Below, piece after piece: positions 1 to 59,271 of a stretch of 64,000 nt of DNA. The position numbers and the translations under genes were made by a program. The notes beneath the pieces were generated by a model. It saw nothing but the letters and a program-made list of their open reading frames with translations, did no database searches and had not been told where the DNA came from. Source of the DNA: Pedobacter aquae (GTDB taxonomy: Bacteria; Bacteroidota; Bacteroidia; Sphingobacteriales; Sphingobacteriaceae); assembly GCF_008195825.1 (NCBI RefSeq), contig NZ_CP043329.1:1-64000 (forward strand), given 5' to 3'. The first letter of the stretch is position 1. The number at the start of each line of letters is the position of its first letter.

Positions 1-1428
1 ATGGAAAAAACGTGTACCCATGTTTGGGAAAACTGTCTTCAAATCATAAAGGATAATATCCCGAGCCAGAGTTTTAAGACCTGGTTTGAGCCTATAACCC
101 CACTAAGATTAGAAGGAAGTATTCTTACTATTCAGGTACCTAGTTTGTTCTTTTATGAATGGCTGGAAGAACATTATGTAGGTCTTTTAAGAAAGACAAT
201 TAAAAACCAGTTGGGCGACTCTGGCAGATTAGAATACAATATTGTTGTAGAAAAATCTTCGTCTCAGAAGCCTTACACTACAAATATTCCTTCAAGTGGT
301 AACGGGGCAGAAGGTAAAAACCAGTCTATCCCTATGCCTGTTGCTTTAAATAAGGATATCAAAAATCCTTTCGTAATCCCCGGATTAAAAAAGCTTCAGG
401 TAGACCCTCAGTTAAATCCAAATTATACTTTTGAGAATTTCATTGAAGGAGATTGTAACCGTTTGGCTCGCTCTGCAGGTTATGCCGTGGCAGCAAAGCC
501 AGGAGGTACCTCATTTAATCCTTTAATGATTTACGGAGGCGTAGGTTTAGGTAAAACTCACCTTGCACAAGCCATTGGTAATGAAATCAAAAGAAACATG
601 CCAGATAAATTGGTTATTTATGTTTCTTGCGAGAAATTTTGCCAGCAGTTTGTAGACTCATTAAAAAACAATACCATTAATGATTTTGTGAATTTCTATC
701 AAGCAATGGATGTCATCATCATGGATGATATACACAACTTTGCCGGAAAAGATAAAACACAAGATATTTTCTTCCATATCTTCAATCACTTACACCAATC
801 TGGTAAGCAATTAATCATCACTTCAGACAAAGCCCCTAAAGATTTAGCCGGTTTAGAAGAAAGATTGCTTTCAAGATTTAAGTGGGGTTTATCAGCAGAT
901 CTTTCTGTTCCTGATATTGAAACCCGTATGGCTATCCTGAAAAAGAAAATGTATCAAGATGGTATAGAGCTTCCAAATGATGTTATCGAGTACGTTGCCC
1001 ACAACATAGACAATAACGTTCGTGAGTTAGAAGGGGCAATGGTTTCTTTACTGGCGCAATCAACCTTAAATAAGAAAGAGATAGATATTTCGTTAGCTAA
1101 ACAAATGCTAAAGAATTTTATCAAAAATACCAGCAAAGAAATATCAATGGAGTATATCCAAAAACTGGTTTGCGAATATTTTGAAGTTCCGGTAGAGATG
1201 GTGAAATCAAAAACCAGAAAAAGAGAAATCGTTCAAGCTCGTCAAATTTCTATGTACTTGGCAAAAAGCCATACCAAAACATCATTAAAATCAATCGGAG
1301 CATTCTTTGGCGGTAGAGACCATTCAACCGTCATTTACGCTTGCCAAACCGTAGAAGACTTAATAGATACCGATAAGAAATTTAAAGCTTACGTTCACGA
1401 TATTCAGAAAAAGCTTAAAATGAGCTAA
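1..1428 (+). CDS. dnaA: Chromosomal replication initiator protein DnaA
   Basis: DnaA binds DnaA boxes at oriC as an ATP-dependent oligomer and opens the origin. The 475-residue product has the usual family length and all four domains: an N-terminal DnaB-interaction domain (about 1-90), a short variable linker, an AAA+ ATPase (about 140-350) and a C-terminal DNA-binding domain (about 380-475). Walker A GGVGLGKT is at residues 179-186, Walker B with MDDIH at 241-245, sensor I LIITSD at 271-276, and the DnaA signature GGRDHSTV near 437-444. The start codon is the first base of the window, so its promoter is not visible. A strong hairpin terminator follows 18 nt after the stop, so dnaA appears to be monocistronic. 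Confidence 0.98.
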   Translation: MEKTCTHVWENCLQIIKDNIPSQSFKTWFEPITPLRLEGSILTIQVPSLFFYEWLEEHYVGLLRKTIKNQLGDSGRLEYNIVVEKSSSQKPYTTNIPSSGNGAEGKNQSIPMPVALNKDIKNPFVIPGLKKLQVDPQLNPNYTFENFIEGDCNRLARSAGYAVAAKPGGTSFNPLMIYGGVGLGKTHLAQAIGNEIKRNMPDKLVIYVSCEKFCQQFVDSLKNNTINDFVNFYQAMDVIIMDDIHNFAGKDKTQDIFFHIFNHLHQSGKQLIITSDKAPKDLAGLEERLLSRFKWGLSADLSVPDIETRMAILKKKMYQDGIELPNDVIEYVAHNIDNNVRELEGAMVSLLAQSTLNKKEIDISLAKQMLKNFIKNTSKEISMEYIQKLVCEYFEVPVEMVKSKTRKREIVQARQISMYLAKSHTKTSLKSIGAFFGGRDHSTVIYACQTVEDLIDTDKKFKAYVHDIQKKLKMS

Positions 1429-1445
1429 CTTAAATTTTCTGAAGA

Positions 1446-1480
1446 AATCCCGTTAGGTACGCACTTAACGGGATTTTTTG
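1446..1480 (+). terminator. Rho-independent terminator of dnaA
   Basis: A perfect 10-bp stem (AATCCCGTTA at 1446-1455 pairing with 1466-1475) around a 10-nt loop runs directly into a T tract, 18 nt past the dnaA stop. Confidence 0.9.
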
Positions 1481-1503
1481 TTTCATTTTTCTGAAAAGGT
1501 AAT

Positions 1504-1567
1504 GTATTGCAGCTTCGGTAAAAACAGTCGGGTGGTAAAACCATCCCTTCGGGACTGTATGCAATAC
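1504..1567. repeat. Nested inverted-repeat element between dnaA and the Nudix gene
   Basis: Three nested palindromes share one axis. GTATTGCA (1504-1511) pairs with TGCAATAC (1560-1567). ACAGTC (1524-1529) pairs with GACTGT (1553-1558). An inner GGTGGT/ACCATC stem with one G-T pair has a 3-nt loop. The element is more GC-rich than its surroundings and contains no reading frame. There is no T tract beside it, so it is not a plain terminator. Function unknown; it could be a REP-like dispersed element or a structured RNA. The rest of the 1481-1686 gap shows nothing else recognisable. Confidence 0.6.
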
Positions 1568-1686
1568 TCCGTTGCTCCCATCCCGTTTATTTTACGCAGG
1601 CTTGTGCTGCTAGGTGTAAATTCTAAACTATAGTTTTTAATTTAACTAATCTTCTAATTTCAGCCCTCAAACTTCCGTTTAACAAC

Positions 1687-2238
1687 TTAACTCAATACCC
1701 CCATCTTCAAAAAAGCATACATCAATCCCGTAACATGTAAAGCTTGCGGGATTTCATTATTCAAAAGCATTTGTTTTACTTCATCAATACTATAAAATTC
1801 AATATCAATATCTTCATGTTCATCTAAATCCTGTTCCTGTACTTTTTTACCCCCTTTAGCCAAATAGCAATAAGTAACATTGTTAGAAGTAGCTGGGTTT
1901 GGGTAAATGGTAGAAACTAGTTCTAAATCTTCAAACAAATAGCCTGTTTCTTCCAAAAGTTCTCTTTTAGCAGCATCAGCAGGGTTCTCATCCCCATCTA
2001 TAACCCCACCCGGAATTTCTAACGAAATAATATCACCACTATGGCGATATTGCTTCACCATAATAACCTTTTCATCCTCAGTAATAGCCACAACATTAAC
2101 CCAATTAGGGTATTCTAAAACATAATATTCTTTAGCTATTCTGCCATCAGGTAGTTTGCATTCATCAACCCTTAAAGTTGCCCAAGGGCGCTTAACAATA
2201 TATTCAGAAGAGCAAGTCTCCCATTTTTCTATACTCAT
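1687..2238 (-). CDS. Nudix hydrolase, ADP-ribose pyrophosphatase-like
   Basis: Predicted to hydrolyse a nucleoside diphosphate linked to another moiety, most likely ADP-ribose or a related nucleotide sugar, in the cytoplasm. The 183-residue product carries a perfect Nudix box, Gx5Ex7REUxEExGU: G78, E84, R92-E93, E96-E97 and G99. The Glu residues bind the catalytic metal. The upstream strand VKQYRHSG and the box position fit the ADP-ribose pyrophosphatase (NudF-like) subgroup, but substrate cannot be fixed from sequence. The ATG lies only about 7 nt after the end of a terminator-like hairpin on the same strand, so expression may depend on read-through or on a promoter I could not identify. Confidence 0.9.
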   Translation of the reverse strand: MSIEKWETCSSEYIVKRPWATLRVDECKLPDGRIAKEYYVLEYPNWVNVVAITEDEKVIMVKQYRHSGDIISLEIPGGVIDGDENPADAAKRELLEETGYLFEDLELVSTIYPNPATSNNVTYCYLAKGGKKVQEQDLDEHEDIDIEFYSIDEVKQMLLNNEIPQALHVTGLMYAFLKMGVLS

Positions 2239-2245
2239 GCTATAA

Positions 2246-2275
2246 AAATAAAAAATCCCGAATTATTTCAGGATT
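2246..2275 (-). terminator. Terminator-like hairpin after the LemA/TPM operon
   Basis: Read on the minus strand, AATCC-GAA pairs with TTC-GGATT around a short AT loop and is followed by a long T-rich tract. It lies downstream of the LemA/TPM genes and their 8-bp repeat array. The T tract ends a few bases before the Nudix start codon, so it could also act as an attenuator for that gene. Confidence 0.7.
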
Positions 2276-2306
2276 CTATAAAACAATTTGTGCTAATATG
2301 TTTTGG

Positions 2307-2402
2307 CACCTAACCACCTAACCACCTAACCACCTAACCACCTAACCACCTAACCACCTAACCACCTAACCACCTAACCACCTAACCACCTAACCACCTA
2401 AC
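2307..2402. repeat. Tandem repeat, 12 perfect copies of an 8-bp unit
   Basis: The unit CACCTAAC is repeated 12 times without a mismatch, ending 3 bp before the stop codon of the minus-strand TPM gene. On the minus strand it reads GTTAGGTG, so that strand carries regularly spaced GG pairs separated by TTA and T. The array is noncoding and falls in the 3' untranslated region of the LemA/TPM transcript. Confidence 0.97.
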
Positions 2403-2404
2403 CA

Positions 2405-3100
2405 CTACCAACTACCACTACTTCCGCCTCCACCAAAACTTCCACCACCAAATCCACCGAAGCCGCCGCCTCCGCCACCAAATCCACCTGATGAGCCACC
2501 GCCCCAACCGCTATTTCCTCCTCTACCCATACCAGCCAACATAGACCACCAAACTAAATCAGCAGCACCTCTTCCTCCAATCACGCTTCTTCCGCCATTT
2601 CCTCCGCCACCTTTACTCACGCCTAAAATAATAATGACTATAATAACCAATATCACCAAGCCTATAGGGAAACCACGTCCTTTACCTTTTATCGGTTTAT
2701 CATTTTTATACTCACCTTTAGTGTAAGCAATAATAGCATTTGTTGCAGCATCTAAGCCCTCAAAATAGCGTTCTTGCTTAAAATTAGGTTTAATTTCATT
2801 TTCAATAATCCTCTTAGTTATAGCATCTGGCAAAGCGCCTTCCATGCCATAACCAGTTTGTATAGTTATTTTTCTATCTCCTAAAGAAGCTAATAAAACA
2901 ACCCCAGTGTTTTTTTCTTTGCCACCAACACCCCAAGCTCTGCCCAATTGGTAAGCATAATCATTAACCTCATATCCATCTAAAGATTTTATTATAACCA
3001 CCGTTACCTGTATAGATGTAGAGTCATCAAAGGCAACAAGTTTTTGTTCTAAATGGTTAATTTGTTCTGGTGATAAGGTACCTGTATAGTCATTTACCAA
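2405..3100 (-). CDS. TPM-domain protein (YgcG-like) with Gly-rich tail; N-terminus probably frameshifted
   Basis: The TPM domain (about residues 1-135 of this frame) is a periplasmic/extracytoplasmic fold usually found beside LemA. It is followed by a membrane segment (about 144-163) and a long Gly/Ser-rich tail ending SSGSW, as in YgcG-type proteins. The only permitted start in this frame is a TTG at 3098-3100, which would give no signal peptide. The frame stays open upstream and encodes a good hydrophobic leader ending in SGFTQ, but the only ATG (3181-3183) is one base out of phase. One extra A in the six-A run after it would restore an MKKILLLILI-type signal peptide and a 259-residue protein (2405-3183). 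A true mutation or a consensus error are both possible. Confidence 0.82.
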   Translation of the reverse strand: MVNDYTGTLSPEQINHLEQKLVAFDDSTSIQVTVVIIKSLDGYEVNDYAYQLGRAWGVGGKEKNTGVVLLASLGDRKITIQTGYGMEGALPDAITKRIIENEIKPNFKQERYFEGLDAATNAIIAYTKGEYKNDKPIKGKGRGFPIGLVILVIIVIIILGVSKGGGGNGGRSVIGGRGAADLVWWSMLAGMGRGGNSGWGGGSSGGFGGGGGGFGGFGGGSFGGGGSSGSW

Positions 3101-3193
3101 AGTACTAGGCTGCGCTGGAAAATTTTGAGTAAATCCCGAAAAAGTAAAAAGAGTAATCAGAATTAATAAAAGTATTTTTTCATTTTTTACGGG

Positions 3194-3622
3194 TTATTTC
3201 AAGAAAACAATATCATCAGATAGCTCATTTGTGTCATTATCAGCATATGGAAAAAACTTTTTCAGTTGTTTACCTGCTTCAATAATCCCAACACTTAAAC
3301 CTTCGGCAATATCTCCATTTTTAAATTGTTCAAGCATTAACTCTTTAGTGCTATCCCAAAAATTGTTAGGCACTAAGCTATTAATTCCGCTATCGCCAAT
3401 AATGGCAAATTTATGATCCTCTATAGCTAAATAAATAAGTACTCCATTTTTAAGTCTAGTCTTATCCATTTCTAGATCAAAAAAACAGGCAATAGCTCTT
3501 TCATAAGCATCTATAGCACAATTTTTTTCTAAGCAAACCCTTATTTCTCCAGAGGTTGCTTTCTCTGCCCATTCTATAGAATGCTTAATTTTTTCTTGGT
3601 CCTTATCAGATAACTGTGGCAT
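3194..3622 (-). CDS. TPM-domain protein, short cytoplasmic-type
   Basis: A 142-residue protein made almost entirely of one TPM domain: the N-terminal SGEIRV segment, the central NGVLIYLAIEDHKFAIIGD strand pair and the C-terminal helix preceding KKFFP are recognisable. It has no signal peptide or membrane segment. It lies between lemA and the Gly-rich TPM gene on the same strand, with the apparent start of the next gene only about 10 nt beyond its stop, which indicates one lemA-TPM-TPM operon. This trio recurs widely in Bacteroidota. The biochemical role is not established; an envelope-associated function is inferred from LemA and YgcG. Confidence 0.85.
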   Translation of the reverse strand: MPQLSDKDQEKIKHSIEWAEKATSGEIRVCLEKNCAIDAYERAIACFFDLEMDKTRLKNGVLIYLAIEDHKFAIIGDSGINSLVPNNFWDSTKELMLEQFKNGDIAEGLSVGIIEAGKQLKKFFPYADNDTNELSDDIVFLK

Positions 3623-3697
3623 TTTAAACCAATTAGATGTATGTGAATATAAAACGTGAGTTTCTATTTAGAAACTCACGCCAATTTATTTTGAAGC

Positions 3698-4276
3698 TTA
3701 GAACTTTACTTCTGGTGCTTTATCAGCACCAGCTTCTGCTGCAAAGCTTCCTTTTGCTGTAAAACCAAACATACCAGCAAAAATATTATTAGGGAAAGTC
3801 CTAATATTGGTGTTGTATTCTTGTACAGCTTGGTTAAAATCTCTTCTGGCAACAGTAATTCTGTTTTCTGTCCCTTCAAGCTGTGCCTGTAACTCTAAAA
3901 AGTTTTGGTTAGCTTTTAATTCAGGGTATTGCTCAGAAACAACCATTAATCTTCCTAGTGCTTGAGATAACTGTCCTTGTGAAGCTTGAAACTTCTGTAA
4001 AGTTTCTGGTGTTAATTTAGTAGGGTCAATTTGTACAGAAGTAGCTTTTGCTCTAGCTTCAATCACTTGCGTAAGTGTTTCTTTTTCAAAATTAGAAACT
4101 CCTTTTACTGTATTTACCAAATTAGGTATTAAGTCTGCTCTTCTTTGGTACTGGTTTTCAACCTCACCCCATTGCGCTTTAACTTTTTCATCTAATTTAA
4201 CAGAACTATTGTAACCGCAAGAACTTAATGATGTTGCAATAACAACTGCAAGAAATCCATAAAGTAATTTTTTCAT
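3698..4276 (-). CDS. LemA family lipoprotein
   Basis: LemA-family proteins are envelope proteins with a predicted helical bundle and no firmly established activity. The 192-residue product begins with a short signal peptide ending in the lipobox LSSC (Cys20), so it is probably a lipoprotein. The family signature QYQRRADLIPNLVNTVKG follows at about 43-60, and the helical core runs to about residue 170. It is the first gene of an operon with two TPM-domain genes. The gap to the divergent FAD-dependent oxidoreductase gene is short, so the two promoters must lie close together. Confidence 0.93.
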   Translation of the reverse strand: MKKLLYGFLAVVIATSLSSCGYNSSVKLDEKVKAQWGEVENQYQRRADLIPNLVNTVKGVSNFEKETLTQVIEARAKATSVQIDPTKLTPETLQKFQASQGQLSQALGRLMVVSEQYPELKANQNFLELQAQLEGTENRITVARRDFNQAVQEYNTNIRTFPNNIFAGMFGFTAKGSFAAEAGADKAPEVKF

Positions 4277-4327
4277 TTTTCGTTTTTTTAATTTTTTTTC
4301 AATTTAATGTTTAGATTTCAATTTTCA

Positions 4328-4335
4328 TACCTTTG
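4328..4335 (+). promoter_or_regulatory. Bacteroidota -7 element, FAD-dependent oxidoreductase gene
   Basis: TACCTTTG matches the TAnnTTTG -7 consensus. It lies 33 nt before the ATG at 4369. An in-frame TTG at 4333 falls inside this element, which argues against using that TTG as the start. I see no clear -33 TTTG at the usual distance. Confidence 0.65.
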
Positions 4336-4368
4336 TTACAATTTGGGATAAATACCCGACAAAATAGC

Positions 4369-5934
4369 ATGAAAAAGGAAATAGAAATTGTTGTCCTTCC
4401 GGATGATATTGATAATCAAGACAAAATTTTATCTCTGATTTTAAATCAGGCTTCTTTAAAAAAAGCCGATTTAAGCCATTTTAATATCAGAAAGCGCTCT
4501 ATAGATGCTCGTGGAAAGCAAGTAGTATTTCGTTTAAAAGTAGAGCTATACATTAAAGAAACACCTTCTTTAACCATCCAAAATATAAAGTATCAAAATG
4601 TCAGTAACGCTAAACCTGTAATTGTGGTAGGTGCTGGTCCTGCTGGTTTATTCGCTGCATTAAGATTAATCGAACTCGGCTTAAAACCAATTGTTTTAGA
4701 AAGAGGAAAAGACGTTAAACAAAGACGTAGAGATCTCGCAGATATCAACAAACAAGGTTTAGTAAACCCCGATTCTAATTATTGTTATGGCGAAGGTGGA
4801 GCTGGAACTTATTCTGATGGTAAATTATATACGCGTTCTAACAAAAGAGGCGATGTTAATAAGATGTTGCAAATTTTTGTCGATCATGGCGCAACAAACG
4901 ATATTTTGATAGATGCAAGACCGCATATCGGGACAAATAAGTTACCTCAAATTATAGTATCTATCAGAGAAACCATACTAAATAATGGAGGCGAAATTCA
5001 TTTTAATACCAAACTAACAGATTTAGATTATAAAGGCGGGAAAATCAGAAAAGTATCTACCAATCATGGTGAAATCACTACCGATTCCCTTGTTCTAGCA
5101 ACCGGGCATTCTGCCAGAGATATTTACTACCTACTTAGAGAAAAAGGTATTTTAGTGGAAGCCAAGCCTTTTGCTTTGGGAGTTCGTATAGAGCACCCTC
5201 AGCAAATCATAGATAGCTTGCAATACCACTGCGATATCAGACATCCTAATTTACCTCCTTCTTATTATAGTTTAGTAGAACAGATTGAAAATCGTGGTGT
5301 ATTTTCTTTTTGTATGTGCCCAGGTGGTATTATTGCGCCTTGCGCTACTGATCATGAAGAAATTGTTGTTAACGGTTGGAGCCCTTCTAAAAGGAACAAT
5401 CCTTTTGCAAATTCAGGCACCGTAGTACAAATCAATATAGAGGATGTAAAAGGTGCCGCTGACGATCCTTTCAAAATGCTTAATTTTCAATCAGAAATAG
5501 AAAAACTAGCATTTAAAATAGGAGGAGGAGATCTTAAAGCACCAGCACAAAGAATGGTTGATTTTGTTGAAAGGAAGATTTCTAATACTTTACCAGATAA
5601 TTCATACCTACCAGGGCTAACGTCTTCAAGTTTAGACGATGTTTTACCACCAATGGTCGCCAATAGATTAAGAAAGGCACTTCCTGTTTTTGGGGGTAAA
5701 ATGTTCAATAGAGATAAGAACGTAGGATATTATACTAACGAAGCAGTTTTAGTAGGGGTAGAGTCAAGAACATCATCTCCAGTAAGAATTCCAAGAGATA
5801 AGGAAACTTTACAGCATCCCCAGGTTAAAGGTCTTTTCCCTTGTGCCGAGGGTGCTGGTTATGCGGGTGGTATAATTTCTGCTGCAATAGATGGTCAGGC
5901 TTGCGCCGATGCAGTATTCAATTTCTTAAAATAA
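4369..5934 (+). CDS. FAD-dependent dehydrogenase (COG2509-type)
   Basis: A cytoplasmic flavoprotein of unknown substrate. An N-terminal domain of about 80 residues precedes a Rossmann FAD-binding motif VVGAGPAG at about 86-93. The family-typical CYGEGGAGTYSDGKLYTR follows, and the C-terminal segment CAEGAGYAGGI contributes to FAD binding. Length (521 residues) is normal for this uncharacterised family. I chose the ATG at 4369 (MKKEIEIVV) because the alternative upstream TTG lies inside the promoter -7 element. The CoA-binding gene begins 5 nt after the stop, so the two are probably cotranscribed. Confidence 0.92.
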   Translation: MKKEIEIVVLPDDIDNQDKILSLILNQASLKKADLSHFNIRKRSIDARGKQVVFRLKVELYIKETPSLTIQNIKYQNVSNAKPVIVVGAGPAGLFAALRLIELGLKPIVLERGKDVKQRRRDLADINKQGLVNPDSNYCYGEGGAGTYSDGKLYTRSNKRGDVNKMLQIFVDHGATNDILIDARPHIGTNKLPQIIVSIRETILNNGGEIHFNTKLTDLDYKGGKIRKVSTNHGEITTDSLVLATGHSARDIYYLLREKGILVEAKPFALGVRIEHPQQIIDSLQYHCDIRHPNLPPSYYSLVEQIENRGVFSFCMCPGGIIAPCATDHEEIVVNGWSPSKRNNPFANSGTVVQINIEDVKGAADDPFKMLNFQSEIEKLAFKIGGGDLKAPAQRMVDFVERKISNTLPDNSYLPGLTSSSLDDVLPPMVANRLRKALPVFGGKMFNRDKNVGYYTNEAVLVGVESRTSSPVRIPRDKETLQHPQVKGLFPCAEGAGYAGGIISAAIDGQACADAVFNFLK

Positions 5935-6767: not shown

Positions 6768-8291
<1,524 letters not shown>

Positions 8292-8318
8292 AGAGAAGTC
8301 GAAAGGTTTTTAAGTTGT

Positions 8319-8329
8319 TACGTTATATG
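8319..8329 (+). other. 3' half of 16S processing stem
   Basis: TACGTTATATG is the exact reverse complement of 6683-6693 in the leader, giving an 11-bp stem that brackets 16S rRNA. Confidence 0.7.
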
Positions 8330-8405
8330 TATATTTTTTTATAAAAGGAAATGAACCTGAAGAGATGAGAATCGGTGGTTCTACCGATGAGGTAAGGGGA
8401 TAGAA

Positions 8406-8479
8406 AGTCTCGTAGCTCAGTTGGTTAGAGCACTACACTGATAATGTAGGGGTCAGCAGTTCAAATCTGCTCGAGACTA
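8406..8479 (+). tRNA. tRNA-Ile (GAT)
   Basis: A 74-nt cloverleaf. Acceptor strands AGTCTCG and CGAGACT pair over 7 bp, a D-arm begins GCTC, anticodon GAT is at 8440-8442, and the T-arm carries GTTCAAATC. CCA is not fully encoded. It occupies the usual position in the 16S-23S spacer. Confidence 0.96.
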
Positions 8480-8567
8480 CAAGAGAGAAGTTAAAGAGTT
8501 AAGATAAGAGTCTATGTAATAGACTTTAAATAACTGTAAAGACGATAACTCAAAAAACATCTTTAAA

Positions 8568-8641
8568 GGGGGATTAGCTCAGCTGGCTAGAGCACCTGCC
8601 TTGCACGCAGGGGGTCAACGGTTCGAATCCGTTATTCTCCA
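8568..8641 (+). tRNA. tRNA-Ala (TGC)
   Basis: A 74-nt cloverleaf with acceptor GGGGGAT/ATTCTCC (including G-U pairs), anticodon TGC at 8602-8604, T-arm GTTCGAATC and discriminator A. It is the second tRNA of the usual Ile-Ala pair in the rRNA spacer. Confidence 0.96.
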
Positions 8642-8687
8642 CGTTTAAGTAAAAGTAGCATACGCAATGTAAACTACAGCTTAAAAA

Positions 8688-8700
8688 AGTTCTTTGACAT
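8688..8700 (+). promoter_or_regulatory. boxA-like antitermination site before 23S rRNA
   Basis: AGTTCTTTGACAT matches the motif commonly seen before 23S in Bacteroidota rRNA operons. The adjacent 8697-8727 is partly complementary to 11670-11710 beyond 23S and probably forms the 23S processing stem. Confidence 0.6.
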
Positions 8701-8771
8701 ATTGGAAGAAGTTATTGAAAGAGAAGACAACAGGTAGAGACATCTACGCTTGTATGTAATCATACAAGAAA

Positions 8772-11645
<2,874 letters not shown>

Positions 11646-11803
11646 GAAACAGATAGATAAAAATCAAACTGTTGTTTTCTCGAACAATATCTTCTTTCAA
11701 TAATATGTCATTGTTGTATGTTTTGAGTTATAAGTAATAGGTTAAAAGTTGATAAACTGATAACTAGCAACTATTAACTGAGAAACGAATCAACATAAAG
11801 ATA

Positions 11804-11915
<112 letters not shown>

Positions 11916-11934
11916 TTTTATTAATCAATAAACT

Positions 11935-37554: not shown

Positions 37555-38312
37555 TTAGATGATTTTAATATTGTGATAAAACCAAGGTTGCTTGGTAAAG
37601 GCTGTTAGTAGACCTTCGTTTTGAATGTTTTCTTTAAGTATTTTTTTGAAAGTGATTTTTATCTCAAAAGGCTTTTCAAACAAATTGCTATTAAACTTAA
37701 TGATGTTTTTATCCTGATAATTAGCAATAATCCTTTGCTCTCCATTATCATGAAAAAATTCGGAGTTATTAAAGCCATCTTTAAAAAGCGGATGCTCGTT
37801 TTTCTTATCTACACCAGGGTTATTCATGCAGGCGTATAAAGATAAGTCATCACAAAGCTGTAATACCTTTAACTGGTAATTTAAATAAGTAGATGTTTGT
37901 ATTTTTAAGCGTTGTATTAAATGTTTTTGCCTTAAAGTTTCTCTTTCATAAAAAGATATACCATACTCGGTTTCAGAATTTGCAAAAAAGCTACTGTAGT
38001 GCATGCTGCAAATTAAAGCGGCATAAGAATTTGCTTGGTCTACTTGCTCAATTCCAAGTTTGTAAAAGTGTAGTTTTATGTTCTCAGGATACGCTATAAA
38101 ATCAAAAGGTTTTTGAAGCTTATCGTTCCAAATTGGCTCAGAGTCTGGAATAATCCAAGCCCTATCATGTTGGTAAATAGCAAATTTTAACGATTCAAAA
38201 TGTTCTGTAGGTATAAACTCTTTCTTTAAGTTTACAAAAATTCTCCTGAGATAGTAGCATGTTCATGCTGCGTTATAAAAATAAATGAATCTTTCGTTTC
38301 CCTCGTAATCAT
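37555..38312 (-). pseudogene. DUF3891 family protein, frameshifted
   Basis: Two overlapping frames together make a normal DUF3891 protein. The N-terminal part starts at the ATG at 38310-38312 (MITRETKDSFIFITQHEHAT) and stops at 38236 region after SGEFL. The remaining ~225 residues continue in another frame, with FAIYQHDRAWIIP and CDDLSLYACMNNPGV, to 37555. One extra A in the five-A run at 38236-38240 (plus strand) would join them into a 252-residue protein. As read, only a fragment starting at the internal ATG at 38004 would be made. Cause may be mutation or a homopolymer base-call error. The family's function is unknown. Confidence 0.85.
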
Positions 38313-57242: not shown

Positions 57243-57461
57243 ATGAAATACGCAGAAATTAAAGCGCTGGCCACAAATGAAATTGTTGCCAGAATTCAGG
57301 AAGAAAAAGCGACTATGACCAAGTTGAAATTTGCACATGCAGTTTCTTCAATAGAGAATCCTACTAGAATTCATAATTCTAGAAAGATTATTGCTCGCTT
57401 AAGTACAGAATTAACTCAGCGCCAAGCGCAAGCTAAGGCAGCTTCTGAAAGTAACTCATAA
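57243..57461 (+). CDS. rpmC: 50S ribosomal protein L29
   Basis: Small two-helix protein near the tunnel exit. The 72-residue product starts [18 protein letters not shown] and has [17 protein letters not shown] in the second helix. A 75-nt gap with no gene separates it from rplP; the space before the ATG is AT-rich with no clear ribosome-binding site. Confidence 0.95.
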
Positions 57462-57475
57462 TTTTTAGAGTCGAA

Positions 57476-57729
57476 ATGGAAAGAAAATTAAGAAAAACAA
57501 GAATTGGGTTAGTGGTGAGCAATAAGATGGATAAATCTATTGTAGTGAGTGTGGAAAGAAAAGTAAAGCACCCAATTTATGGTAAGTTCGTAAAGACGAC
57601 TACCAAATTTATGGCTCATGACGAGAAAAATGATTGCGGTGTTGGAGATACCGTTTTGATCATGGAGACACGTCCTCTGAGTAAGAACAAAACTGGAGAT
57701 TAGTTGAAATTTTAGAAAGGGCTAAGTAA
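57476..57729 (+). CDS. rpsQ: 30S ribosomal protein S17, 3' end frameshifted as read
   Basis: Small-subunit protein binding 16S helices 7 and 11. The frame as given ends early at 57703 after SKNKTGD (75 residues). One extra A in the four-A run at 57689-57692 would continue with [13 protein letters not shown], the conserved S17 C-terminus, to a stop at 57727-57729 and an 84-residue protein, right before the rplN ATG at 57731. I give the full-length span. Because two other neighbouring ribosomal genes show the same kind of lesion, a consensus error is likely. Confidence 0.9.
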
Positions 57730-57730
57730 G

Positions 57731-58098
57731 ATGGTACAACAGGAATCACGATTAAACGTAGCCGACAATTCTGGAGCTAAAGAAGTTTTAGTTATCAGAG
57801 TGTTAGGTGGTACCGGTAAAAGATATGCTTCTATTGGTGATAAAGTGGTAGTAACTGTGAAAGCAGCACTTCCATCAGGAAACATCAAAAAGGAACAGTA
57901 TCTAAAGCTGTAGTAGTTAGAACGAAGAAAGAAATCAGAAGAAAAGATGGTTCTTATATCCGTTTTGACGATAACGCGGCAGTATTGTTAAATAACCAGG
58001 ACGAACCAAGAGGTACTCGTATCTTTGGCCCGGTTGCAAGAGAACTGCGTGAAAAACAATTCATGAAAATAGTATCATTAGCACCGGAGGTTTTGTAA
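57731..58098 (+). CDS. rplN: 50S ribosomal protein L14, frameshifted as read
   Basis: Large-subunit protein at the subunit interface. The frame as given stops at codon 61 (57913) after [11 protein letters not shown]. Adding one A to the five-A run at 57887-57891 restores [23 protein letters not shown] and the normal C-terminus [15 protein letters not shown], ending at 58098, for 122 residues, the normal length. L14 is essential in bacteria and no second copy is in this window, so loss of half the protein is implausible; a missing base in the assembly is the simplest explanation. Confidence 0.9.
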
Positions 58099-58099
58099 A

Positions 58100-58440
58100 A
58101 TGGAAAATAAGAAAAAATCACAACCTAAATTAAATATCCGTAAAGGAGATTTAGTAACGGTTATCGCCGGAGACTCTAAAGGTCAACAAGGTAAAGTAGT
58201 TGAAGTAAGAATTAAAGAAAACAGAGCTATCGTTGAAGGTGCTAATATGGTTTCTAAACATTCTAAACCTAGTGCTACTAATCCTAATGGTGGTATAAGT
58301 AAAATGGAAGCTCCTATTCATATCTCTAACTTAGCATTAGTTGATCCTAAAACAGGTAAAGCTACAAGAGTTTCAAGAAAGAGAACTGAAGACGGAAAAG
58401 TTGTTAGAATAGCTAAAAATCTGGGGAGGAAATTAAGTAA
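58100..58440 (+). CDS. rplX: 50S ribosomal protein L24, 3' end frameshifted as read
   Basis: Early-assembly large-subunit protein with a KOW motif ([18 protein letters not shown] near 19-36). As given, the frame runs past the rplE start to 58468 and ends in an unusual [10 protein letters not shown] tail. One extra A in the five-A run at 58415-58419 gives KKSGEEIK and a stop at 58438-58440, overlapping the rplE ATG as TAATG, for 113 residues. That ending is the family-typical one, so the shorter, corrected span is reported. Confidence 0.88.
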
Positions 58441-59009
58441 TGGCTTACGTACCAAGATTAAAAGATAAATACAAGGCAGAAATCGTTGATGCTCTTAAGG
58501 ATAAATTCCAATATAAGAGTGTTATGCAAGTGCCTAAGTTGACGAAAATTGCAATCAACCAAGGTGTTGGTGCAGGCGTTACTGATAAAAAAATAGTTGA
58601 AGCTGCTATCGTAGAATTAACTACCATAACCGGACAACAAGCTGTTGCAGCAAAGTCTAAAAAAGATATCTCTAACTTTAAATTGCGTAAAGGTATGCCA
58701 GTAGGTGTACGTGTAACTTTACGTGATAACAAGATGTATGAGTTCTTAGACCGTTTAATCGCAGTTGCTTTACCACGTATCCGTGACTTTAAAGGTATTA
58801 ATGATAAAGGTTTTGATGGAAACGGAAATTATACTTTAGGTGTATCAGAACAAATTATCTTCCCTGAGATTAACATTGATAAAATCAATAAAATCCAAGG
58901 TATGGATATCACTTTTGTAACTAGCGCTGGAACTGATGTTGAAGCCTTAGAGTTACTTAAACAATTCGGATTACCATTTAAAAATCAAAATAAAGTTAAC
59001 AATGGCTAA
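58440..59009 (+). CDS. rplE: 50S ribosomal protein L5
   Basis: 5S rRNA-binding protein of the central protuberance. The 189-residue product is complete: [44 protein letters not shown] and [12 protein letters not shown] Shine-Dalgarno-like GGGGAGG lies at 58423-58429, inside the end of rplX. Its ATG overlaps the corrected rplX stop. Confidence 0.97.
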
Positions 59010-59271
59010 AGAAGGTGTAAAAGCTCGCGAAATTAAGCGTCAAAAGTTAGTAGCAAAGTTTGCTGCTAAAAGAGAAGAATTAAAAGCTGCTGGAGATTTT
59101 GCGGGATTAGATAAATTACCAAAAAACTCTTCACCTGTTCGTTTACACAATCGTTGTAAATTAACTGGTCGTCCAAGAGGTTACATGCGTCAGTTCGGTA
59201 TTTCAAGGGTTACTTTCCGTGAAATGGCACTTGCAGGTAAGATTCCAGGGGTTAGAAAAGCAAGCTGGTAA
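59002..59271 (+). CDS. rpsN: 30S ribosomal protein S14
   Basis: Small-subunit head protein. The 89-residue product lacks zinc-binding CxxC pairs, so it is the zinc-independent long form, with [35 protein letters not shown] present as separate conserved blocks. Its start overlaps the end of rplE by 8 bp. An inverted repeat carrying a promoter -7 element follows before rpsH. Confidence 0.96.

Follow-up and report, generated by a model that had tools for sequence, protein, structure and literature searches.

Probable consensus errors behind one-base losses at A runs in three ribosomal protein genes of a Pedobacter aquae genome assembly

Introduction

Reading frames broken at homopolymers have been described both in assemblies made from long reads and in genomes with many A or T tracts, and we compare these cases here with three adjacent ribosomal protein genes, rpsQ (S17), rplN (L14) and rplX (L24), which appear to lose frame at runs of A in the first 64 kb of the Pedobacter aquae genome (contig NZ_CP043329.1; this whole stretch of 64,000 nucleotides is called the window below). 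In the sections of the reports drawn on here, the indel errors of a long-read assembly of Pseudomonas syringae 508 were mostly false deletions at homopolymers of 2-8, the deletions being commonest after homopolymers of 4-5, in A/T (PMC12007338), and frame-breaking homopolymer indels survived polishing in nanopore assemblies, with 151-5298 annotated pseudogenes after Racon-Medaka compared to 12-136 in the truth genomes (PMC8011154). The P. aquae assembly is similar to what these sections describe in that deletions of one base prevail, in short A/T homopolymers and in many genes, the frames of which are kept in relatives. It is unlike some of the polishing pipelines in the latter report, which left 7,891-11,753 deletions in an isolate (PMC8011154), because, scaled up from the 37 losses counted in 443 kb of genes, roughly 300 such losses may be present in the whole P. 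aquae assembly.

Frameshifts in poly-A and poly-T tracts that are possibly corrected by slippage have been reported for Blochmannia, the genomes of which are rich in tracts of at least 9 (PMC3017870, in the part considered here). The P. aquae locus resembles that case, as far as this part describes it, in having A-run frameshifts in otherwise intact genes and differs in that the runs are 4-5 long, the genome is 3.85 Mb in size and the near relatives are intact. In the part of another report used here, insertions during transcription in Escherichia coli and Buchnera grew exponentially with run length, and among the transcription errors none was found to restore a reading frame (PMC5574713).

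Results

From the comparison of sequences we infer, strongly and with a probability of about 0.96, that the breaks in rpsQ, rplN and rplX are uncorrected one-base deletions in the consensus of the assembly and that the genes would be intact in the cell. The window opens a single contig of 3,854,044 bases (assembly G000 in our set), with an estimated completeness of 99.92% and contamination of 0.77%; the best named match of its L2 protein was in Pedobacter cryophilus (94% identity, L021). The part at 54-62 kb is an ordinary ribosomal protein cluster, and the A runs and frame losses that had been described there were confirmed by the sequence, by the lengths of the open reading frames (ORFs) and by the alignments with relatives (Table 1).

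Table 1. Features of the window with apparent one-base losses
Feature	Coordinates	Strand	Observation
rpsQ (S17)	57476..57703	+	apparent frame loss at AAAA, 57689-57692; C-terminus truncated
rplN (L14)	57731..58098	+	apparent frame loss at AAAAA, 57887-57891; second part open in next frame
rplX (L24)	58100..58468	+	apparent frame loss at AAAAA, 58415-58419; end enters rplE
One-base loss in A/T run of a gene intact in G007	38236..38240	-	longer run in all three near relatives

Compared to the near relative G007, the product of rpsQ was shortened from 84 to 75 amino acids and that of rplN from 122 to 60, the remaining frame of rplN being open at 57886-58095; rplX gave 122 amino acids instead of the normal 113, as it reads beyond its usual end into rplE. 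The Pfam profiles gave the same picture. The S17 match reached position 62 of 68 in the window (68 in G007) and the L24 match 63 of 65 (65 in G007), whereas the L14 match was split into 1-58 and 54-122 and was whole in G007. Because the damage is confined to about a dozen C-terminal residues in S17 and the last few in L24, rplN is the only severe break among the three. If L14 were truly lost, the cell would not be expected to survive.

The stretch from L29 to S14 (57243-59271 of the window, 2029 bases) had a full-length DNA match in 16 of the 17 other genomes of the genus; no match to it was found in the last one, G015, which is 77% complete. In the three nearest relatives, G007, G004 and G003, which share 97% DNA identity with the window over this stretch, it measures 2032 bases, and the alignments place the three extra bases at the three A runs, one at each, between nearly identical flanks. 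The frames of these relatives are plain and intact at all three sites. The preliminary description had proposed that a single added A repairs each gene; one base is indeed missing at each site, and since the extra letter of rplN is A in two relatives and G in the third, the letter lost there may be either. We also surveyed the locus in 101 sequences, a few genomes being represented twice, and scored a gene as intact when 85% of it lay in one frame. By this measure rplN was intact in 94 of the 96 loci matched; the exceptions were the window itself and L003, the same piece of DNA. The test is not strict enough for S17 (96/96) and L24 (94/96), where even the broken copies of the window pass as intact, and for these genes we relied on Pfam and the alignments; the two L24 exceptions were L042 (73% matched, not at the locus end) and L053 (cut by the locus end).

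Just beyond the window (G000:C1:64427-65200, L111), rpsM (S13, 64546) and rpsK (S11, 64824) are each one A-run base short, and the longer runs are kept by G003, G004 and G007. Of the 64 loci scored for S13, only that of G000 was not intact; S11 was non-intact in 8 of 57, all 8 at the locus end.

For the window, all indels against the three relatives were computed in the aligned parts, and those of 1-2 bases were listed. The comparison at gene scale was made between G000 and G007 in the first 464 kb (region 1) and in a distant 200 kb at 2.26-2.46 Mb (region 2). We retained 443 of 585 G007 ORFs, 443,407 bp in total (289 of 410 in region 1 and 154 of 175 in region 2), after dropping those shorter than 80 amino acids, with a match covering less than 80% of the ORF or with less than 84% identity. 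Changes less than 45 nt from the start or 15 nt from the end of an ORF were also dropped, which loses rpsK and others, and a change was called isolated if no other frame-changing gap lay inside 60 nt.

G000 showed 37 isolated one-base losses in 33 of these intact genes, and one gain of one base, one of two bases and one loss of two bases. The 37 losses stand against a single gain of one base (p about 3e-10). Losses occurred in both regions, with 27 losses in 289 genes (282 kb) of region 1 and 10 in 154 genes (162 kb) of region 2, and for the genome as a whole the losses exceed chance. In the reverse test, on 451 genes intact in G000, G007 had 2 isolated losses and 24 gains of one base; 20 of these gains coincide with G000 loss sites, seen from the shortened G000 frames, and 4 lie elsewhere. 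A looser first count in region 1, with the event filters off, found a shifted stretch in 40 of 303 G000 genes and, in reverse, in 24 of 310.

Most of the 37 losses were placed in A/T runs of 5-8 (25) or 4 (2), with one in a C run of 4 and nine in runs of 1-2. Their number per coding A/T run was 2/6774 at length 4, 3/2222 at 5, 12/798 at 6, 7/209 at 7, 3/26 at 8 and 0/3 at 9, so that the rate climbs from about 0.1% at length 5 to 1.5% at 6, 3% at 7 and 12% at 8. For G/C runs, 0/2911, 1/449 and 0/61 were counted at lengths 3, 4 and 5.

Five ribosomal protein genes were affected (S13, S11, S17, L14 and L24). Other affected genes that could be identified encode NusG, RodA, NAD kinase, LeuA, IspH, shikimate kinase (aroK), UvrA and an NAD(P)H-hydrate dehydratase/epimerase, besides transporters, a REP-associated transposase, a Fic-like protein and several proteins without a family. 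The losses in rpsM, rpsK, rodA, the NAD kinase gene, ispH, leuA and aroK lie in A/T runs of 6-7 and that in uvrA in a run of 2. Essential genes are not spared, as the five ribosomal genes, rodA, ispH and the NAD kinase gene are among those affected. The break in nusG, which is close to the start, may be mild, as an open frame of 190 amino acids still matches profile positions 11-171 of 172. A second, distant NusG-like gene at G000:C1:157246-157662 (L156) is under the family cut-off and has an open frame of 173 amino acids.

Second copies were looked for among the ribosomal genes and nusG. Family searches of the whole of G000 located S17 and L24 once each, and L14 came out as two pieces of a single gene that overlap. 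The second-copy check that had been proposed for the three genes thus found none in the single 3.85 Mb contig, and no second intact copies of S13 or S11 were found in these searches either. The L29-S14 DNA also occurs at one place in G000, and it had no match among phage records.

Discussion

The preference of the preliminary description for consensus error over mutation is supported by the one-sided losses in both sampled parts of the genome, by the intact relatives and by the single copies. In this explanation the sequencing or polishing method would have read short A/T homopolymers one base too short throughout the genome, more often at longer runs, and the A-rich ribosomal cluster would have gathered several of these shortened runs. 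The cause would lie in the sequencing consensus, probably one of long reads without accurate short-read polishing, as the single contig suggests.

Comparison of coding and non-coding runs, with both regions pooled, bears on this explanation in different ways according to run length. One-base losses in A/T runs of 6-7 were similarly frequent in genes (22/643 runs) and outside them (12/242, p = 0.33). Gains of one base, which should be real divergence, were instead depleted in genes (1 of 643 compared to 11 of 242, p = 5e-6). In runs of 6-9 the losses numbered 24/655 and 17/273 (p = 0.11), and in runs of 5-9 they were 27/2204 and 30/624; since the latter are unequal, the equality is limited to 6-7 and, less exactly, 6-9. 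We read these figures to mean that at short runs the real non-coding divergence swamps a low error rate, and that errors dominate inside genes at 6-7.

Several observations weigh against consensus error. In A/T runs of 4-5 the losses are depleted in genes (6/6619 coding compared to 22/1161 non-coding, p = 9e-14), which is the pattern that real indels would give, and rpsQ, with a run of 5 in the relatives, belongs to this class; gains there were 1/6619 and 10/1161, and this class alone gives no argument for errors. The range of 6-7 was chosen after the table of region 1 had been viewed, region 2 being added later as a check. In DNA that lies outside genes in both genomes, 38 losses are balanced by 40 gains, as real indels are mixed in there, and the nine losses in runs of 1-2 may reflect true divergence or the way the sequences were aligned. 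The comparison at genome scale rests on one pair of genomes with a single near relative. Finally, the three losses are denser than the process predicts. In 5000 simulations with pooled per-run rates, the three sites themselves included, 14% had a triple loss inside 730 bp at some point of the 460 kb, but the S17-L24 stretch itself expects 0.095 losses and reached three in 0 of 5000.

With more losses than the mean rate would give, the S17-L24 cluster is a local excess over a genome-wide process, and this excess is part of why the stretch was noticed earlier. The suggestion of a local deletion bias holds only to that extent, given the losses in both sampled regions and those of rpsM and rpsK beyond the window. 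A purely local patch of errors was ruled out by the losses in the distant 200 kb sample, despite the excess.

It is very improbable that the deletions are real and that the strain is a hypermutator which has lost mismatch repair and sheds homopolymer bases. Indels in A/T runs are typical of such a loss and were counted in favor of this view. However, mutS and mutL are present without stops and cover nearly their full profiles (2-839 of 840 and 1-552 of 555), gains are near zero next to the losses, and single-copy ribosomal genes are among those affected.

We consider it equally doubtful, to the point of near dismissal, that the deletions are real and that slippage at the A runs, in transcription or on the ribosome, yields full-length S17, L14 and L24. 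The preliminary description had held that, if the bases were real, slippage would be needed for L14, and this found no support: no long A/T run is present at the three sites, where the runs are only 4, 5 and 5 long; the frameshift is not kept in relatives, the frames being ordinary in genomes of 97% identity; and slippage would also have to rescue the 33 genes hit in the two samples, as far as their products are needed. The tracts of at least 9 in Blochmannia and the transcription data from E. coli and Buchnera cited above also weigh against slippage at such short runs. A broader version, in which the RNA polymerase or ribosome of this Pedobacter-group strain would be unusually prone to slippage and would so produce L14 and dozens of other proteins in spite of frameshifts in their genes, is likewise hardly credible. 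That the operon is a decaying duplicate with intact copies elsewhere is just as improbable and is refuted for this assembly, as no evidence in support of it was found and L14, S17, L24 and the L29-S14 DNA each have one place in a genome that is a single and nearly complete contig.

If the breaks are consensus errors, as we believe, their value is that of a quality flag and not of biology. Claims of gene loss, pseudogenes or recoding that are based on this assembly would be untrustworthy without polishing.

Elsewhere in the window, the G007 copy of the gene in the last row of Table 1 had no NCBIfam match. The rRNA operon at 6769-11916, with 16S, tRNA-Ile, tRNA-Ala, 23S and 5S, accounts for the higher GC content of that part.
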